DNA of 64,000 bases from an uncultured Opitutales bacterium (GTDB lineage Bacteria; Verrucomicrobiota; Verrucomicrobiia; Opitutales; Seribacteraceae). This document shows, piece after piece, positions 6,017 to 58,667 of this stretch. Under the pieces are notes generated by a model. It saw only the letters and a program-made list of their open reading frames with translations. It had not been told where the DNA came from and did not search any database. The stretch is taken from NCBI GenBank assembly GCA_905612515.1, contig CAJQSI010000063.1, positions 1 through 64,000 of the forward strand. The letters are read 5' to 3'. Position 1 is the stretch's first letter. Every line of letters starts with the position of its first letter. Position numbers and translations under genes: made by a program.

Positions 6017-9000
6017 CTAAGGTGAACTCTGTATGAATTGCCCGTAAATTATAAGGTCGCCAGTTGCTTTTGTGGAAAGTGGCGAATCGGTTCCGGAAGC
6101 GTCACCGAACCATTGTTTAAATATATAGCCTTCTGCAGGAGTAGACTGCAATACGGCAGTCGCACCTTCTTCGTAGATACCACCTCCGCTGATTGTTCCT
6201 CCATCGATGGGGAAGGAAACGACCATGATCTCGTAGGTGGTGGCTATGGATTCCCAACTAGATGTTAGGTAGTTGTAATAAGCGAAACTGCCATCTGACA
6301 GTCTTGAGAAATAGTTCCACTCAAAAGTGTTTTGCGACCAAGCGTGCGGGTAGACGTCTTTGTTTGTCCAGAGCCAACCAAGACGTTGCGTCCAGAACCA
6401 CATGGATGAGTCGTTCTCCGGTTGGGTGAAGATCCAGCCGTAGTCATTGTGATAAGCCCAATTAGGGCTAGCTTGATGAAAGTAGCCGAACCATGAGCTT
6501 TCTTTCCATCCAGCCTCAACTGTTATCGCATCGAGGGCGAAGGAAAGGGTACCTGCGTCGGGATGACGCTCAAAGGTTACGACTAGATTGACGTTGCCTG
6601 TGACTGAAATGTTCTGGGTCAGCGAAGTGGATGCATTCTGGATGGCTCCCGACCAGTGAGAAAACTCGTACCCTTTGATGGGGTTGGCGACAAGCGTTAC
6701 ATTTTCGTCTAATTCGTAGAAACCGGTTCCAGAAATCGTGCCTGCGCCCAAAGGAACCGAAGTAACTTGAACTTCATACTTTATCTTTTCGAACGTTGCC
6801 GTGAGGATGGTGTTTTCGGATAGGGATACGGTCGTGACACTTGCGTTTGCATCCGTCGGAGTTCCCCCTCCTGTCCATCGGGCGAACTGATATCCGGTTG
6901 CGGGGATAGCTGTTATTGCGTTGCTTGCGCCGTATTCAAACTGTCCTCCGCCGGCGACTTCTCCACCTTCCGGAGGTTCGCTGGTTAGATTCAAGGTGTA
7001 CTGGGCTTTCACGAAGTTGGCGGTGACGTTGGTGTCGTCGATAAGGTGTATGTGAGTAGTAGCTAAGGATGGGGATAAGACGTTGGGACCTGTCCAACCG
7101 TTGAACACGTAACCGATGTTTGGTTCTGCGGTTACGTTCGCATCAGTCCCGTAAGCAAAGGTTCCGTTTCCATATACCGTTCCTCCCTCTCCCGCCAAAA
7201 CAGTGAGAAGATGGTTTTTAAGAGTAAACTTGGCCCTTAAGGATAAATCCGCATTCATCGTTATGGCGGGAGAGGCGGGAGTTGGAAGGGATGTCAAGTC
7301 GATCACGTTCAGTATCCCACCCATCCCAAAGTGAGTTCCACAACGATAACGGAGTGCGTTCGGCGTAGATGAATCGGGGGTGAAGGCTAGGAAACCGGAG
7401 GAAGATCGAGATCCCGAGACGTCATTTAGGAATTCGCCTGCGTAACCTGAAGCGTTGTCATCTCCGGTAGTTAGAAAGAAGGGGTGATCCGCGGTGGTAT
7501 TTCCATCGAGGCTGAACCGATAGGTGATTCCCCTAACCAAGGTCAGGTCCGGGCTTTCTCGATTGTCGACGTAGTATGCGCTCTGTCCTGCGGACAATTG
7601 GCGAGGAGATACTGTGACTTCATACTCAACGGTGCCGTTAAGTTCCCACGCTGACAATTGGTGACCGACTTCGGGAATTGCGGAGATTGAAACCGATGAA
7701 CCTCTTTCGTAAGTGCCGCTGCCGAACGGCGAGTGGTTGCCGTCGGTGAAGAGAACGAGTTTGTGCGGATTGGCGGCGAAGAATGCAGTTGCATTTACTT
7801 CCGCTACGTCGTTGCCCAAAAAAAGTTCGGTGGAGACGGAATTTGGATCGTTGGCGGTGGCGCCTGTTACTTGCCAGCCGAAGAAGTAAGCTCCGTTGTC
7901 AGGCAATGCTTGGACATTTGTCGTTTGGCCAAAGACGGTGGCTTGAGAACCTGTGGCGGTTCCCGGACCGGAGGCAAATACGTTGACTTGTATTGGTCTT
8001 GGCGAGAATACGGCGGACAGGACGAGGTCTCCTGTTGCTGAGATGGTTTGGGTGGAAGAGTTGGGAGATGCGAATGCAGTTCCGGTCCATTGTTCGAATT
8101 GGTAACCCGAGGCCGGGGTGGCAGTTAGCGTAAATGAATCGCCATGCAAGTGCGTACCGCTCCCAGTAGTCGAACCTGTGCCGATCGGAGAGACGGTGAC
8201 TGTTACACTATAGGGGAGTTTTTCGAATACGGCCGAAAGCGTGGCGGGACTTGTGAGCATTTGGGTAGTTGAGCTTGCATTCTCGTCGGTTGGGGAACCT
8301 CCCGACCAGTTGCTGAATCGATATCCTGTTGAAGGAATAGCTGAGATTGATGCGGCAGTTCCGTGAGGATAGGTTCCTGCGCCTCCGGTACTTCCACCTT
8401 CCTGTGGTGTCGATGAAAGCGACAGCGCATACTGGGCAACTTCGAAATTGGCTGTAATTACCCTGTCGTCGTTCACGGTTACGGTTGTAGTTTCTGACGT
8501 AGGCGAGGCAATCCCGGTTCCTGCCCAACCTGCAAAGGCATAACCTGAATCAGGCGAAGCGGTTACGTTCGCTTCTGTTCCGTAGTGGAATGTTCCGCCA
8601 CCTGTTGTACTACCGCCTGAACCGGAATTGACGGTCAGAACATGCTGATTCAAGGAAAAGTTAGCTCTGAGGGCAAAGCTTGCGTTGAGGTCGACTGTCG
8701 TGGTTCCGATGTCGAGGCTATCGATCAGAGAAGTAGCATCCATGACATGGATGACGTTCCCCATGCCGGCATGGTTTCCGCAATGAAAATAAAGGGTGGA
8801 GGGAGCGCCGATGTCGACCGTGATGCTAATAGTTCCGCTCGTTGCTCGTGAGTTTGTCACTCCGTCAAGGTATTCGCCAACATAGCCGTTGCCACCTCCT
8901 GATGAGTCGGTGCTAAAGTAAAAGGGATGATTTGCGGTTGAGCTGCCATCGAGGATGAATTGGTAGGTGTTGCCCCTGGCGAGTGTGAGGGCTGGGCTTT

Positions 9001-12000
9001 CCTGACCGTTGATCAAAAAGGCATTGACGGAAGAGTCGAACTGCCGAGGGGCGGTAGTGACCGCGAAAACAATGGTCCCGTTGACTTCCCATTCAGAAAA
9101 ACTGTACCCGGTGTCGGGGGTGACCGAGATGGAAACGGTTTCTCCATGTGAATAATTGCCGTCTTCGGAAGTGGAACCGCCGGTAGTTGCTACGAGATCA
9201 AGCTGGTGTCTAAGCGCCGAGAAGTGGGCGGTGGCATTGGCGTCTGAATTCAGGTCGAGGGCAACCGTTGCCGAGTTAAGTGAAAGGGGATTGGTGAGAG
9301 TGCCTCCCGATACACTCCATCCCAGAAATTGATATCCGGTAGCCGGGGTGGCGGAGAGAGTGACGGAAGAATTTTCTTCATAGGTCCCGCCGCCGCTTGT
9401 GGAACCCGAGCCAATGGGTGAGGCAAAGGTTTGCACGATTTTCCAGTTGGCGGGAACTAGCTCGAAATTGGCCGAAACGTTTCGGTCCTGGGTTATGGAT
9501 ACGTTAGTGGATGAAGAGGACGTATCTGAAATCCCGCCTCCGGTCCAACCTGTGAAGAAATAGCCGAGGTCCGGGACGGCTGTGATTGGGGCGGTTGCAC
9601 CGTAACTGAAGTTGCCGTCTCCTGTGGCGGAACCGCCGACGGTGGACGTTAGTTGCAATTGAAAGACTTGAGGAGTGAAAGTGGCGGATACGTTGCGGTC
9701 TTGCGTCATGTGGACCGAGGTGGATGATGCGTTAAGGTCTGCCAACCCTTCTCCCGCCCATCCTGCGAAAACGTAACCAGAAGCGGGCGTCCCGGTAACG
9801 TTGGCGTCCGTCCCGTATGCAAACGTTCCCGTGCCTGTGGCGCCACCGCCTCCGGTAGATACAATTGTTAGAAGATAGGTTTTCGCTTGGAAGTTGGCCG
9901 TGACGTTTCGATCACTTGTCATGTGCACGGTAGCATTGACTTCATTGGAATTGCTTACGCCGGCTCCCGTCCATCCTGTGAAATCGTAACCCAAGTTACT
10001 TGCTGCGCTAATATTGGCGGTTGAGTTGTAGTCATAAGTTCCCGAACCAGTGGTCGATCCTCCTTCTCCAGCCGTTAGAATTAGGGTGAATTGCCTGATC
10101 GCGAACGAAACGGAAACGTTTCGATCCTGCGTCATGTCGATAGTGGTGGTAGACGCATTTACGTCGGAAATGCCGGAACCGAGCCATCCTGCGAATTCGT
10201 AACCGGACTCCGGGGTGGCGCTTATCGCAGCTTGGGCGCCATGGGAAAATGTTCCTGGGCCAATAGTTGTTCCATTAGGTCCCGCGGAAACGATTAAGTT
10301 GTATTGGTTGATGGCGAAGTTTGCCGATACGGAACGAGACTGGGTCACGGAGGTCGTAGTGATTGTGGAGTTGGGGTCAGCTACGCCACTTCCACTCCAA
10401 CCCGTGAAATGATACCCGGGCGAAGGCGTTGCGGTAATGTTGGCGTCGGTTCCGTGTTGGAACGTCCCCGAACCTGTTGCTGTACCCCCCGTTGCAGCAG
10501 TTGCGTTAAGATCATAATTTTTCAGTTGGAAGATTGCGCTGACGTTGCGATCCTGTGTCATTACCACCGTGGTAAGGCTGGAATTTACGTCAGTGATGCC
10601 GGTGCCCGACCAACCTGTGAAGAGATACTCTGCATTTGGAGTCGCCGCAATCGGCACGGAAGAGTTCCAGTCGAAGGTTCCCGATCCCGTAACGGAACCT
10701 CCTGTGACTGCTGATGCTAGGAGTGTGTACCTGTTGATCGAGAAGGATGCGGAGACGTTGCGGTCCAGCGTCATGTCTACCGTGGTGGTGGAAGCGTTTA
10801 CGTCGGCAATGCCTACTCCGCCCCATCCGATGAACGAGTAACCGGTTTGCGGAGTGGCTGTAATTGTCGCTTGGGTTCCATGGTTGTGAGAACCTGGAGA
10901 GGATACGCCGCCACCTGTGGTTACGGCTGAAACGGACAGGGCATAGGAGTTTATGAGGAAGGTGGTGCTTGCATTTCGGTCCTGTGTCATCAGAACCGTA
11001 GTGTTTGCATCGGAAGTGTTGGTTATACCGACCCCGACCCAGCCCGTGAATTGGTATCCGACGCTCGAGGAAGCCGAGATTGGTGCGGAAGAGTTCCAGT
11101 CAAAGGTTCCCGATCCCGTAACGGAACCTCCTATGACAGCTGATGCTAGGAGTGTGTACCGGCTGATAGAGAAGGATGCGGAGGCGTTTCGGTCCTGCGT
11201 CATGTCTACCGTGGTGGTGGAAGCGTTTAGGTCGGTGATGCCTTCGCCGATCCATCCTGTGAAGGTATAGCCCGTTTGAGAAGTAGCGGTAATGGTAGCT
11301 TGGGTGCCGTGGTCGTGATTGCCGGAACTGGATACGCTCCCGCCCGAACCGGAGCTTGTGGTGAGTGAGTATGAATTGATGAGAAACGTAGCGCTTACGT
11401 TTCTGTCCTGTGTCATTAGAACCGTAGTGTTTGCGTCGGAGGGGTTGGTTATGCCGGTTCCGACCCAGCCCGTGAAGGAATAGCCGGTGTTTGGCGTTGC
11501 CGTGATTGGGGCGGAGGAATTCCAGTCAAAGGTTCCTGCCCCGGACACGGTGCCGCCGACTCCTCCGGATGCTATCAGAGTGTGTTGATTGATGGTAAAG
11601 GTTGCCGTGACGTTTCTATCCTGAGTTATGAGTACGGTTGTGTTGGAGGCGTTCAGGTCGGCGATACCATCGCCCGTCCAATCCTTGAAGGAATAGCCCG
11701 TGTCAGGGGTTGCCGATATTGCCGCTACAGTCCCGTAATCAAATACGCCTGCTCCTGACACGCTTCCACCCGTTCCGCCTGTTGCGCTAAGGGTGTAGGG
11801 ATTCAAGGTGAAGTGCGCCGTTACGGATCTATGTTGTGTGGCCGCGAGACTAATGGTTCCGTTCGTTTCGTTGGAATCCCCTGACCAATGGGAGAACGTG
11901 TATCCGGTTGTGGCCGTGGCAGTGAGAGTGGCGGTGGCGCCTTGGTTGTGAACCCCTGCTCCGGCAATCGTGCCGGATCCTACCGGGGAGGCATTGGCGT

Positions 12001-51289: not shown

Positions 51290-51874
51290 CTAATTGTTCT
51301 TTAGGATCAGGAACTGAGCCCTGCGGTCGACCTTAGCTTTGCTTGCGGATGCGTTCGGGACTGATTTTTCATCCCCGATGGAAATGACATCGATCCTAGA
51401 TGCGTCGCACCCAAGATCCACTAAGTAATTCTTAACAGTGGAGGCCCGTCTGTCTCCCAAGGACTTGTTGTACTCGGGAGTTCCTTTCCAGTCGCAGTAT
51501 CCTTCGATAATTACACTGGCCTTGGGGGAACTCTTCATGAAGTCGGCCACTTCCTTGACTTTCGGGCGTTCCGCGGCGGCTAGGTTGTATTGGTCGAAAC
51601 CGAAGAAAACAGGGTCGAACGGGCGTATCACGTTATCCGGGTCGCTAAATGCTGCGAGATTGGGATTTCGCTGAGACAGAATATCATCGTTCAGAGGGTT
51701 GTTGATCAGGGGGCCTCCTTGGGCGAATTCGTCAGCACCTGTGTTAAATCCTACCCCCCCGTTTTCACTGCCTGATCCACCCCGGTTCAAAGTTGTGTCG
51801 GGATCTGTGTTTTTTTTGCAGCTAGCAAAGGAGAAAATTAACAGAATGAGCCAGAATGCGTTAAATATTTTCAT
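51290..51874 (-). CDS. Pal-like OmpA-domain lipoprotein (copy 1)
   Basis: 194 residues with a lipobox at the start (IFSFASC, Cys about residue 19). A Gly/Asn-rich linker precedes an OmpA-like peptidoglycan-binding domain: PVFFGFDQYNLAAAERPKVKEVADFM, VIIEGYCDWKGTPEYNKSLGDRRASTVKNYLVDLG, SIGDEKSV and RRAQFLI. The Asp and Arg of the LGDRRA segment are the expected diaminopimelate contacts. The unusual C-D-W after EGY/EGH is shared with its neighbour, so both come from one duplication. They tether the outer membrane to the cell wall. No tolB/tolA is nearby. Confidence 0.88.
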   Translation of the reverse strand: MKIFNAFWLILLIFSFASCKKNTDPDTTLNRGGSGSENGGVGFNTGADEFAQGGPLINNPLNDDILSQRNPNLAAFSDPDNVIRPFDPVFFGFDQYNLAAAERPKVKEVADFMKSSPKASVIIEGYCDWKGTPEYNKSLGDRRASTVKNYLVDLGCDASRIDVISIGDEKSVPNASASKAKVDRRAQFLILKNN

Positions 51875-51886
51875 GGCTTGATGAAG

Positions 51887-52492
51887 TTAGCTGTCCTTTT
51901 GGACGAGGAATTGAGCTTTCCGCTCTAAGCTTGCCGTTGAGGAATTTGCATTTGGCGTCGATCCCACATCACCCATGGACCTTACGTCGATGCGATTGGC
52001 GTCGCACCCAAGGTCGATCAGGTATTGCTGGATGCTGGATGCTCGTCGATCGCCAAGCGCCATGTTGTAGGCCGGTGTGCCTTTCCAGTCGCAGTGACCT
52101 TCGATAAGGATGCGAGCATCACGATTGATTTGCATGAACTCGGCTACTTGCTGCAGTTTGGGTCTCTCGTCTTGGCCAACGTTGTATTGGTCGAATCCAA
52201 AGTAAATGGCCTCGAATGGCTTTTCGGCTAGCTCGATGGCACCAGGGGCTTCCCATAATGAGTCTTGAGGCTTAAGACCGTCACCCTCGAAATTATTTTC
52301 AAATGATTCGCCAGAAGCGGCCCAGTCGCCATCTCCCAATCCTCCCCCAGTGCCGTCGCCATTCATGAAAGTGTTGCGCCCACCGCTTTTAATGAGCACC
52401 GTGTCTTCAGGATTTGGTCCTTCCTTCTTGGAACAACCAAACGAAAACCCGACCCAAATTCCACATACTACCAACAACTTTATTTTTTTCAT
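51887..52492 (-). CDS. Pal-like OmpA-domain lipoprotein (copy 2)
   Basis: About 201 residues from ATG 52490-52492 (preferred because MKKIKLLVVCGIWVGFSFGC gives a lipobox). A Gly/Asp-rich linker is followed by the OmpA-like domain: AIYFGFDQYNVGQDERPKLQQVAEFM, LIEGHCDWKGTPAYNMALGDRRASSIQQYLIDLG and RKAQFLVQKDS. Roughly half of the domain is identical to copy 1. Located 12 bases upstream of copy 1 and likely co-transcribed. Having two tandem Pal paralogs suggests specialised or growth-phase-specific wall anchors. Confidence 0.88.
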   Translation of the reverse strand: MKKIKLLVVCGIWVGFSFGCSKKEGPNPEDTVLIKSGGRNTFMNGDGTGGGLGDGDWAASGESFENNFEGDGLKPQDSLWEAPGAIELAEKPFEAIYFGFDQYNVGQDERPKLQQVAEFMQINRDARILIEGHCDWKGTPAYNMALGDRRASSIQQYLIDLGCDANRIDVRSMGDVGSTPNANSSTASLERKAQFLVQKDS

Positions 52493-52568
52493 AATATATA
52501 CTTTCCACCACAATTTTAAAGCAAGTCATTCCCATAACTCAGCTGGGGAAATCAACTATCCCCTTTAA

Positions 52569-56876: not shown

Positions 56877-58517
56877 ATGGAAATTTATCTGCATCAGGAC
56901 GGTGAACGTTCGGGACCATATACCTTGGAAAACCTCCAGGCTTGGCTCGAAGCCGGGCAATTGACCGTTTCCGACGCCGCCTGGTTCGAGGGTTGCTCGG
57001 ACTGGGTCACGATACAGGACGTCCCGGGCATCATGCTGCCCGGCGGCGATCATCTCGTGAACGTCTCCACCGTGCCGCCGTTCGAGTCCTACCAAGGGGA
57101 CGAACCCTATGTCTTCGTAAGCTACTCCCACAAGGACGCCGCCGTGGTCTACGAGGAGATCACGCGACTCCACGAGGCCGGAGTCAACGTATGGTACGAC
57201 GAAGGCATCGAGGCCAGCAACGAGTGGCCCGAGGAAATCGCCAGGGCGGTCGTCGATTGCTCCGTGTTCCTCGTGTTCGTCTCACCGCGGGCCACCGCCT
57301 CGGTCAATTGCCGCAACGAAATCAATTTGGCCCTCAACGAGAACAAGCCCTTTCTCGCCATTCATCTGGAGGAAACGGAACTGCCGCTCGGTCTCCGGCT
57401 CCGCATGGGCGATCTTCAGACCATTTTGCGCTACAAGCTCCCAGTAGACCGCTACCAAAAGAAAACACAGAACAGTCTGGAGCAACTTCTCGGCAAGAAA
57501 CCGGCCAGGTCGAGAACAAGACCTCCCATCACCCAGCAAGCCGAGGCCACTCACGCAACCACCAAACCCGTTGAGCAGGCCGTCCAGACCGATGCCACCA
57601 CTCCATTCAAGCCCCGACGTAAGGGCCTCGCCGTGGCTTTGGCCTCCATTCTCCTCATTGCCTGCAGCTTGCTCGGTTACCTGTTTCTCGGCGATGATGG
57701 CGACGAGACCACTTCCACCGCCACCTTCACGCCCGGCCAACCCTGGACGGTGCCGACGGCATCGATTGAAATGCTCTGGTGCGAGCCGGGTACCTTCATG
57801 ATGGGCAGTCCTGAGAGCGAGGAAGGGCGTGAGCTCGACAGAAAAGGAAAAAAGTATTTCGACGAAACCCGGCATCAAGTGACGCTGGCCAAAGGATTTT
57901 ATTTGGGCAAATACGAGGTCACGCAGGCCCAGTGGAAGAAGGTCATGGGTACCTCACCCAGCAAGTTCTTCGGCGAAAATCGTCCAGTCGAACAAGTGAA
58001 ATGGACGGAGGCGGTGCGGTTCTGCGAAGAGCTTACTTTGGCCGAACGCAAGGCGGGACGATTGCCCGATGGTTGGGAATATTCGTTGCCGACGGAGGCC
58101 CAGTGGGAATATGCCTGCCGAGCGGGTACCACCACGATCTTTTCCTTTGGCAACAGTCTGTCGAGCAAGCAGGCCAACTTCAATGGAACGAAACCTTACG
58201 GGGGAGCGGAAGCAGGTGTCTTTCTCGAACGAACCACCGATGTGGGCTCCTACTCAGCCAACCCGTGGGGCTTTTACGACATACACGGGAATGTTTGGGA
58301 ATGGTGCTCCGACTGGTACGGCGACTACCCGAGCAGTACGGTCCGCGACCCCATGGGACCAGCGACTGGCTCGCTTCGCGTCTATCGCGTCTATCGTGGC
58401 GGTGCTTGGTACTACTTCGCCCAGGACCTGCGTTCCGCGTCTCGGCACAGGAACGTGCCGGACGGCCGGTTCAACTCCGTGGGCTTCCGCCTCAGTTTGC
58501 GGCAGACGGGGAAATAG
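56877..58517 (+). CDS. GYF_2-TIR-transmembrane-SUMF1 receptor-like protein
   Basis: 546 residues. GYF_2 domain (1-55, IYLHQDGERSGPYTLENLQAWLEAGQL), a TIR domain (77-175) starting FVSYSHKD with E116/E119/E120 around the expected catalytic glutamate and SVFLVFVSP, a linker, a transmembrane helix (about 250-271), then a SUMF1/C-type-lectin domain (about 296-540): IEMLWCEPGTFMMGSPESEEGRE, LGKYEVTQAQWKKVMG, YSLPTEAQWEYACRAG, GNVWEWCSDWYG and RGGAWYYFAQDLRSASRHRN. The SUMF1 lacks the FGE catalytic cysteines of the final segment, so it probably binds ligands instead of making formylglycine. Topology: TIR inside, SUMF1 outside. Confidence 0.88.
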   Translation: MEIYLHQDGERSGPYTLENLQAWLEAGQLTVSDAAWFEGCSDWVTIQDVPGIMLPGGDHLVNVSTVPPFESYQGDEPYVFVSYSHKDAAVVYEEITRLHEAGVNVWYDEGIEASNEWPEEIARAVVDCSVFLVFVSPRATASVNCRNEINLALNENKPFLAIHLEETELPLGLRLRMGDLQTILRYKLPVDRYQKKTQNSLEQLLGKKPARSRTRPPITQQAEATHATTKPVEQAVQTDATTPFKPRRKGLAVALASILLIACSLLGYLFLGDDGDETTSTATFTPGQPWTVPTASIEMLWCEPGTFMMGSPESEEGRELDRKGKKYFDETRHQVTLAKGFYLGKYEVTQAQWKKVMGTSPSKFFGENRPVEQVKWTEAVRFCEELTLAERKAGRLPDGWEYSLPTEAQWEYACRAGTTTIFSFGNSLSSKQANFNGTKPYGGAEAGVFLERTTDVGSYSANPWGFYDIHGNVWEWCSDWYGDYPSSTVRDPMGPATGSLRVYRVYRGGAWYYFAQDLRSASRHRNVPDGRFNSVGFRLSLRQTGK

Positions 58518-58525
58518 CCTTTTCT

Positions 58526-58641
58526 GTCATTGCGAGGAGGGATTGAATCCCGACGAAGCAATCCAGCGGGAGTGAGGGACATCTCAAGAAACAATGCCGA
58601 CTGGATTGCCGCGTTGGTCTTACGACCTTCCTCGCAATGAC
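58526..58641. repeat. Palindromic interspersed repeat (MITE/REP-like)
   Basis: 116 bases. The outer arms GTCATTGCGAGGA (58526-58538) and TCCTCGCAATGAC (58629-58641) are exact inverted repeats; inner CAATCCAG and CTGGATTG also pair. This belongs to a type of repeat that is very common in diverse bacteria. It lies between convergent genes, and could fold as a terminator in both directions. Confidence 0.8.
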
Positions 58642-58667
58642 ATGAAAGTCCGGGGGCCCTTGCCTGC

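Follow-up and report, generated by a model that had tools for sequence, protein, structure and literature searches.

A candidate membrane TIR receptor of Opitutales with a SUMF1 ectodomain ending in a DGR-like variable region

Domain organization and predicted topology

The gene located at positions 56877-58517 (+ strand) of the window, the stretch of 64,000 nucleotides from an uncultured Opitutales bacterium analysed here, begins with ATG and encodes a GYF_2-TIR-TM-SUMF1 protein of 546 amino acids plus the stop codon. As far as can be judged from sequence, this protein is probably a membrane TIR signalling receptor, with a ligand-binding tail that either still is or once was a dispersed target of a diversity-generating retroelement (DGR).

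The N-terminal GYF_2 domain (aa 4-51; 56886-57029, +) obtained 42.4 bits against its Pfam profile (cut-off 25.8) and is a probable cytoplasmic adaptor; the profile also matches the GYF domain of AgmX (PDB 7z3c), a gliding-motility protein whose adaptor GYF it thus resembles. It is followed by a TIR_2 domain (aa 79-181; 57111-57419, +; 70.6 bits for a cut-off of 28) modelled with pLDDT values mostly above 90, by a transmembrane helix (aa 253-271; 57633-57689, +) and by a C-type-lectin-like ectodomain of the SUMF1/FGE-sulfatase family (aa 298-539; 57768-58493, +; 143 bits for a cut-off of 23.3). Among PDB sequences, the latter is matched best by TvpA (2y3c), a DGR variable protein of Treponema denticola, with an E value of 1.3e-23. 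In the AlphaFold model of the full protein, the GYF_2, TIR and transmembrane parts are good and the second half of SUMF1 is poor, with low confidence. In the alignment to the solved human FGE, the segment MCHRSYC corresponds to WYYFAQD and both catalytic cysteines are absent, as the earlier note had stated; formylglycine chemistry is therefore excluded. Since the Pfam scores exceed the cut-offs and the GYF_2-TIR module recurs in 15 family genomes, the gene and its domain order are real, and a chance origin of the layout at 56877-58517 is excluded.

The TM helix is the only hydrophobic segment (Kyte-Doolittle mean 2.48) and was modelled as a helix from residue 250 to residue 270, so that the receptor-like arrangement TIR - membrane helix - SUMF1 proposed in the earlier note is borne out by both the Pfam domains and the hydrophobicity profile. 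Its N flank is positively charged, with five Lys or Arg among the 30 residues that precede the helix, against none among the 30 that follow. Because of this bias, the positive-inside rule predicts an N-in/C-out orientation, with the TIR domain in the cytoplasm and SUMF1 beyond the inner membrane. Cells of the Opitutales/Verrucomicrobiota type (Gram-negative) are enclosed by two membranes, and the sensor face is consequently predicted in the periplasm. The surface sensing suggested by the earlier note is not supported, as nothing places the ectodomain on the outer surface.

The TIR cassette family

The family sample was composed of 42 genomes; the window's own assembly (G000) is 52% complete. 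Proteins sharing the GYF_2-TIR half (class A) were found in 15 of the 42 and are 51-65% identical over this half. Their N-terminal half is constant and their C-terminal half is exchanged: the ectodomain is a single SUMF1 in the window gene and L028, SUMF1 plus LamG in L026/L058, two SUMF1 domains in L033/L063, SUMF1 plus a bacterial Ig-like domain in L036/L066, and an unassigned extracellular region in genus g4. In all seven proteins fetched from genus g2 (L027, L029-L032, L034, L035), TIR is followed by a second GYF_2, a TM helix and an LRR-like domain, this last assignment being based on Pfam hits below the cut-off, the spacing of repeats and a weak Foldseek match to the bacterial LRR protein 4q62; the structure model of an LRR-type relative, of low confidence, alternates helix and strand. 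The corresponding g2 genes (L055, L056, L057, L059, L060, L061 and L064; for example L060:5995-7668) are single copy and display a mirror image of the Toll layout.

A second class (class B) consists of proteins of about 490 aa, organized as TIR-linker-SUMF1 without TM, which most genomes of the family encode, and a class A or B protein occurs in 39 of the 42 family genomes. The C terminus of these soluble proteins (L040-L054, and L017:5653-7218 on the - strand in the window's genome) is strongly conserved and non-variable; the L017 gene adjoins a gene of 652 aa whose C terminus appears nucleotide-cyclase-like by eye.

The public records of the family relatives carry the labels Opitutales or Opitutia (Verrucomicrobiota). 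Elsewhere, class A was detected only in records labelled Opitutales, Opitutia or Verrucomicrobia, and the TIR relatives next in line are spread over many phyla. Of the 80 loci fetched, about half have a predicted hydrophobic helix, in some cases inside the TIR domain and then doubtful. The organization TIR-TM-X is clear in several loci, as TIR-TM-SUMF1 in Methylacidiphilales (L079) and Xanthomonadales (L107) and as TIR-TM-FlgO-TPR in Pseudomonadales (L095). This layout therefore recurs, the form with GYF_2 being a lineage-specific version.

Catalytic features of the TIR domain

Two features of TIR NADases are present, the TIR fold, whose nearest solved structure to the model is the TIR domain of SARM1, and the catalytic glutamate in helix C. 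The latter, Glu148 (codon 57318-57320, +), aligns with the catalytic Glu of NADase TIRs, as in BtTir (7uxr), so that the residue on which the earlier note had made its proposal depend is in place. Glu148 is invariant in 16 of 16 class A proteins and is also found in class B; the surrounding residues S142, N144-N147 and N150-L153 are likewise invariant in the 16 proteins. A third feature is absent: the conserved Trp that precedes the catalytic Glu by four residues in BtTir and AbTir is replaced by Asn144 (codon 57306-57308, +). In AbTir, this Trp is needed for cyclisation, and the substitution W204A lowers the activity and changes the product (PMC10937652); in our reading of the alignment, W204 would be the equivalent of Asn144. 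One possible reading, which we rate as less likely than not, is that TIR acts as a non-enzymatic scaffold and recruits partners together with GYF_2 without cleaving NAD+. The loss of the Trp and the likeness of GYF_2 to the adaptor of a gliding-motility protein point in this direction, whereas the invariance of Glu148 and its surroundings suggests a retained active site. A scaffold would be compatible with a receptor and bears on its output only.

The C-terminal tail

The last ~115 nt of the gene look like a DGR variable region (VR; 58386-58499, +). As in DGR targets, this region lies within a C-type-lectin-fold domain, at the extreme C terminus. Its framework differs from the template of the genus, with 17 mismatches outside the adenines of this template (TR1), and matches nearly letter for letter a SUMF1 gene of genus g4 (L144/L193, genome G041), the sole sharer of this framework that was found. 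Between the two genes, third-position differences affect 4 of 37 codons in the tail and 97 of 184 codons upstream (p=1.2e-6), and differences at first and second positions are at least as frequent in the tail as upstream. Identity in the tail is thus 53% at the amino-acid level and 84% at third positions, against 64% and 46%, respectively, in the SUMF1 body. The drop in third-position differences is absent from the control SUMF1 L066.

To locate adenine sites, the real templates present in G027, G030 and G038 (genus g3) served as surrogates, one extra codon of L144 being dropped. The differences between the window gene and L144 fall on 14-15 of 25-28 template A sites and on 6-7 of 68-71 other sites (p from 5e-5 to 6e-7; from 2e-4 to 9e-6 for codon positions 1 and 2 alone), a footprint that rests mainly on this one partner sequence. 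When the tail was removed, phylogenetic analysis joined the window SUMF1 body to the other TIR-class SUMF1 domains and not to L144, with a support of 86/92, which is not in the strongest support class. Tail and body therefore differ in history, as predicted by retrohoming or by conversion from a VR-bearing copy. The same tree overturned a BLAST suggestion that the body came from lipoproteins of the genome itself.

At the 5' edge of the VR, a 9-nt tandem duplication (CGCGTCTAT twice; 58377-58394, +) encodes RVYRVY, where the other VR copies have a single RV-x-RGG; it is a possible junction scar. Just 3' of the stop codon, we observed an imperfect inverted repeat (58519-58648) with 48-nt arms, 75% complementary, and a 34-nt spacer, of the type CATTGCGAGG...GAAGCAATCC; look-alikes were seen by eye in the DGR locus of G027. 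In G041, the VR-bearing SUMF1 gene is followed by a kinase-SUMF1 gene (L193:8717-11322, contig C17).

Variable regions and DGRs in related genomes

VR copies were detected in dispersed SUMF1 proteins of the window's genome (L018-L022) and at the loci L136-L160 and L198-L202. Their third positions are nearly identical and their variable codons adenine-specific, and the proteins that carry them have a kinase, GYF_2, vWA-like or lipoprotein scaffold. Many of the copies are found on a short contig or not far from the start of one. At the C termini of the SUMF1 genes of this genome, the copies keep the framework codons and third positions, and NNC, NNT and NCG codons are replaced. The genus template was inferred from the VR copies themselves, with adenines placed at the variable sites; relative to it, the genus copies L136, L147, L148, L151 and L154 have 13-16 differences at A sites and none elsewhere. 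Clean or near-clean VRs are found in the genome or genus in a Ser/Thr kinase-TM-PEGA protein (C97), a GYF_2-TM protein (C19), lipoproteins (C20, C109) and an Ig-like multi-SUMF1 protein (C22), and in G011 in a SUMF1 lipoprotein that is vWA-like by eye. As the same type of sensor is mounted on kinase, GYF_2, vWA and lipoprotein scaffolds, the TIR protein is to be seen as one output among several. On contig C109 of the window's genome (L162:1501-1560, near ~9568), an intergenic remnant contains only the last 25 nt of a VR and a conserved downstream stretch (about AGCAAGTAGCGGAGTGAGCCGTA), which is found 3' of most VR copies and is possibly the 3' element of the homing site.

Real DGRs are present in the sister genus g3, complete in G027 and G038 and as reverse transcriptase (RT) plus template in G030. 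The locus of G027 (L190, C34) contains the template (6077-6241), an RT with YMDD (6280-7254), an HRDC accessory gene (7288-7776) and a SUMF1 target of 1020 aa (8037-11096), where 16 and 20 of 32 A sites are changed vs 1 and 2 other sites. The corresponding values are 11-15 of 31 A sites vs 0-4 others in G038 (L191, C10). An RT with YMDD and a template region were found in all three loci (L190, L191 and L192, the last on contig C238 of G030), the HRDC accessory in L190 and L192, and multi-SUMF1 targets with adenine-specific VRs in L190 and L191.

In the window's genome, four genus mates and G041, searches with Pfam RVT_1 and with the sister DGR RT as query recovered no RT. No template with the backbone of the window VR was detected in G000, its genus mates or 273 genomes of the order, the viral contigs contained no template/VR patterns, and the HRDC accessory gave only weak matches elsewhere, within open frames of far greater length (623-888 aa). 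In G009 and G010, the contigs that carry VR copies are short, or the copies lie near their starts, and the element may for this reason be hidden by an assembly broken at repeats; a lost DGR, of which the window VR would be the fossil, may also account for these results.

These missing elements, the 17 mismatches with TR1, the conserved, non-VR tails of the relatives L058/L062/L063 and the lack of VR-like tails in the SUMF1-bearing TIR relatives of genus g3 could point to a membrane TIR receptor with an ordinary SUMF1 ectodomain, whose tail is either a fast-evolving loop or the product of a one-off gene conversion from a DGR-diversified paralogue. A conversion from a VR-bearing paralogue would leave a footprint similar to that of retrohoming. 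We consider this alternative unlikely: the silent sites are near-identical and NNC codons are replaced between two genera, the differences are concentrated on the adenines of independent real templates, and third positions would not stay conserved in a fast-evolving loop. A tail that is or was a DGR target remains our preferred interpretation.

Genomic context

In the window, the neighbours of the gene are an epimerase-like, a DHDPS-like and a 3-keto-disaccharide hydrolase gene, a gene for a PQQ-propeller protein and an aldehyde dehydrogenase gene. The relatives are located between bc1-complex and endonuclease III genes in genus g2 and beside thymidine phosphorylase in genus g3; these loci are syntenic within each genus and contain no defence genes recognisable in gene names read from the translations. 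Apart from a generic match to the aldehyde-dehydrogenase family, no partner gene adjacent to the TIR gene is common to the window and the relatives. Further upstream (51290-52513, - strand), two adjacent homologous lipoprotein-like ORFs of 194 and 208 aa form a tandem duplication, with OmpA-like C termini by eye.

The program padloc returned no match in the five window neighbours, and no ThsA-like partner lies nearby. The defensive or self-killing role raised in the earlier note, in which an anti-phage or abortive-infection effector would sense a ligand, deplete NAD+ and kill the cell, is very improbable, despite a modelled TIR nearest to SARM1 with the conserved Glu148, weak matches to ThsB-type TIRs and the TIR domains found among DGR targets of putative conflict systems in other bacteria (PMC10907252), given the metabolic and syntenic neighbours without cognate effector, a class A or B TIR in nearly every family genome, unlike patchy defence islands, and a periplasmic sensor that is unusual for phage sensing. 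Because of the metabolic neighbours and the lack of padloc matches, we consider a receptor for signalling more likely than a suicide device against phages.

Proposed mode of action

The protein would act as a one-component receptor, with GYF_2 and TIR in the cytoplasm and one signal-anchor helix crossing the inner membrane. The catalytically dead SUMF1 domain of C-type-lectin fold would bind a ligand in the periplasm, and ligand binding or receptor clustering would gather the TIR domains and so trigger their output, either cleavage of NAD+ or TIR-TIR scaffolding with recruitment of a partner by GYF_2. The C-terminal ligand-binding strip would have been overwritten at some point by mutagenic retrohoming from an adenine-rich template, a process that may or may not still act on the window gene. 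The specificity of the receptor could in this way change without touching the signalling half, as in the sister kinase, GYF_2, vWA and lipoprotein SUMF1 proteins.

More tentatively, and with slightly less than even confidence, a DGR acting in trans might, in one verrucomicrobial lineage, diversify the side with which a whole set of membrane signalling proteins (TIR, Ser/Thr kinase, GYF_2, vWA and lipoprotein types) binds ligands in the periplasm. The result would be a bacterial counterpart of the Toll-like receptors in which the sensor can be rewritten, the TIR half being a cassette that other members of the family join to an LRR-like or a LamG ectodomain. Receptors of the Toll type and diversification like that of antigen receptors are usually treated apart and as animal inventions; here they would be joined in one bacterial polypeptide. 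The window gene offers a concrete test case for a role of DGRs in free-living cells, the change of receptor specificity, and variation is predicted to be restricted to adenine-derived codons, of NNC or NNT type and lying between 58395 and 58490, within the last 38 codons.

Comparison with known systems

A literature search by name for the TIR+SUMF1/FGE architecture returned nothing relevant. With the SUMF1/formylglycine-generating enzymes, the window protein shares the PF03781 fold family and differs by the replacement of both catalytic cysteines. TvpA also bears a C-terminal VR on a C-type-lectin fold, but the matched chain has neither TIR nor GYF_2. The TIR fold is common to Thoeris ThsB and other defence TIRs, and PF08937 passes its cut-off (23.9 vs 21.2); the score of TIR_2 is however far higher, no ThsA-like gene lies next door and the layout is that of a membrane receptor.

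Like animal Toll and Toll-like receptors, the protein associates an ectodomain, a single TM helix and a cytoplasmic TIR. The resemblance noted earlier is strengthened by the family members with LRR-like ectodomains. The order is reversed, the window TIR being N-terminal in a type II topology, and the sensor is SUMF1 and not LRR; the likeness would at most be one of function, and homology outside TIR is not claimed.

Close parallels are DGR proteins of cyanobacteria and Thiohalocapsa (PMC7517822, PMC10907252), where a C-terminal C-type-lectin/FGE domain with VR is likewise preceded by an N-terminal signalling domain (kinase, TIR or CHAT) and dispersed paralogues have one template in common. The cyanobacterial targets combine kinase, caspase-like and TIR-like domains with C-terminal lectin folds in dispersed paralogues that are mostly predicted cytosolic (PMC7517822), binders anchored in the membrane are frequent among cellular DGR targets as a whole (PMC8144416), and DGR-TIR proteins elsewhere were proposed as conflict systems (PMC10907252, PMC7159879, PMC8195603). 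The window gene differs by its occurrence in Opitutales, by its exchangeable ectodomains, by a genome in which the RT was not found and by a TIR and a VR predicted on opposite sides of a TM helix. DGR-diversified bacterial TIR proteins, mostly predicted cytosolic, were thus already known; what appears to be new is the combination across the membrane, with a TIR inside and, outside, a SUMF1 that bears a VR, in a family of cassettes where LRR-like ectodomains are used as well.
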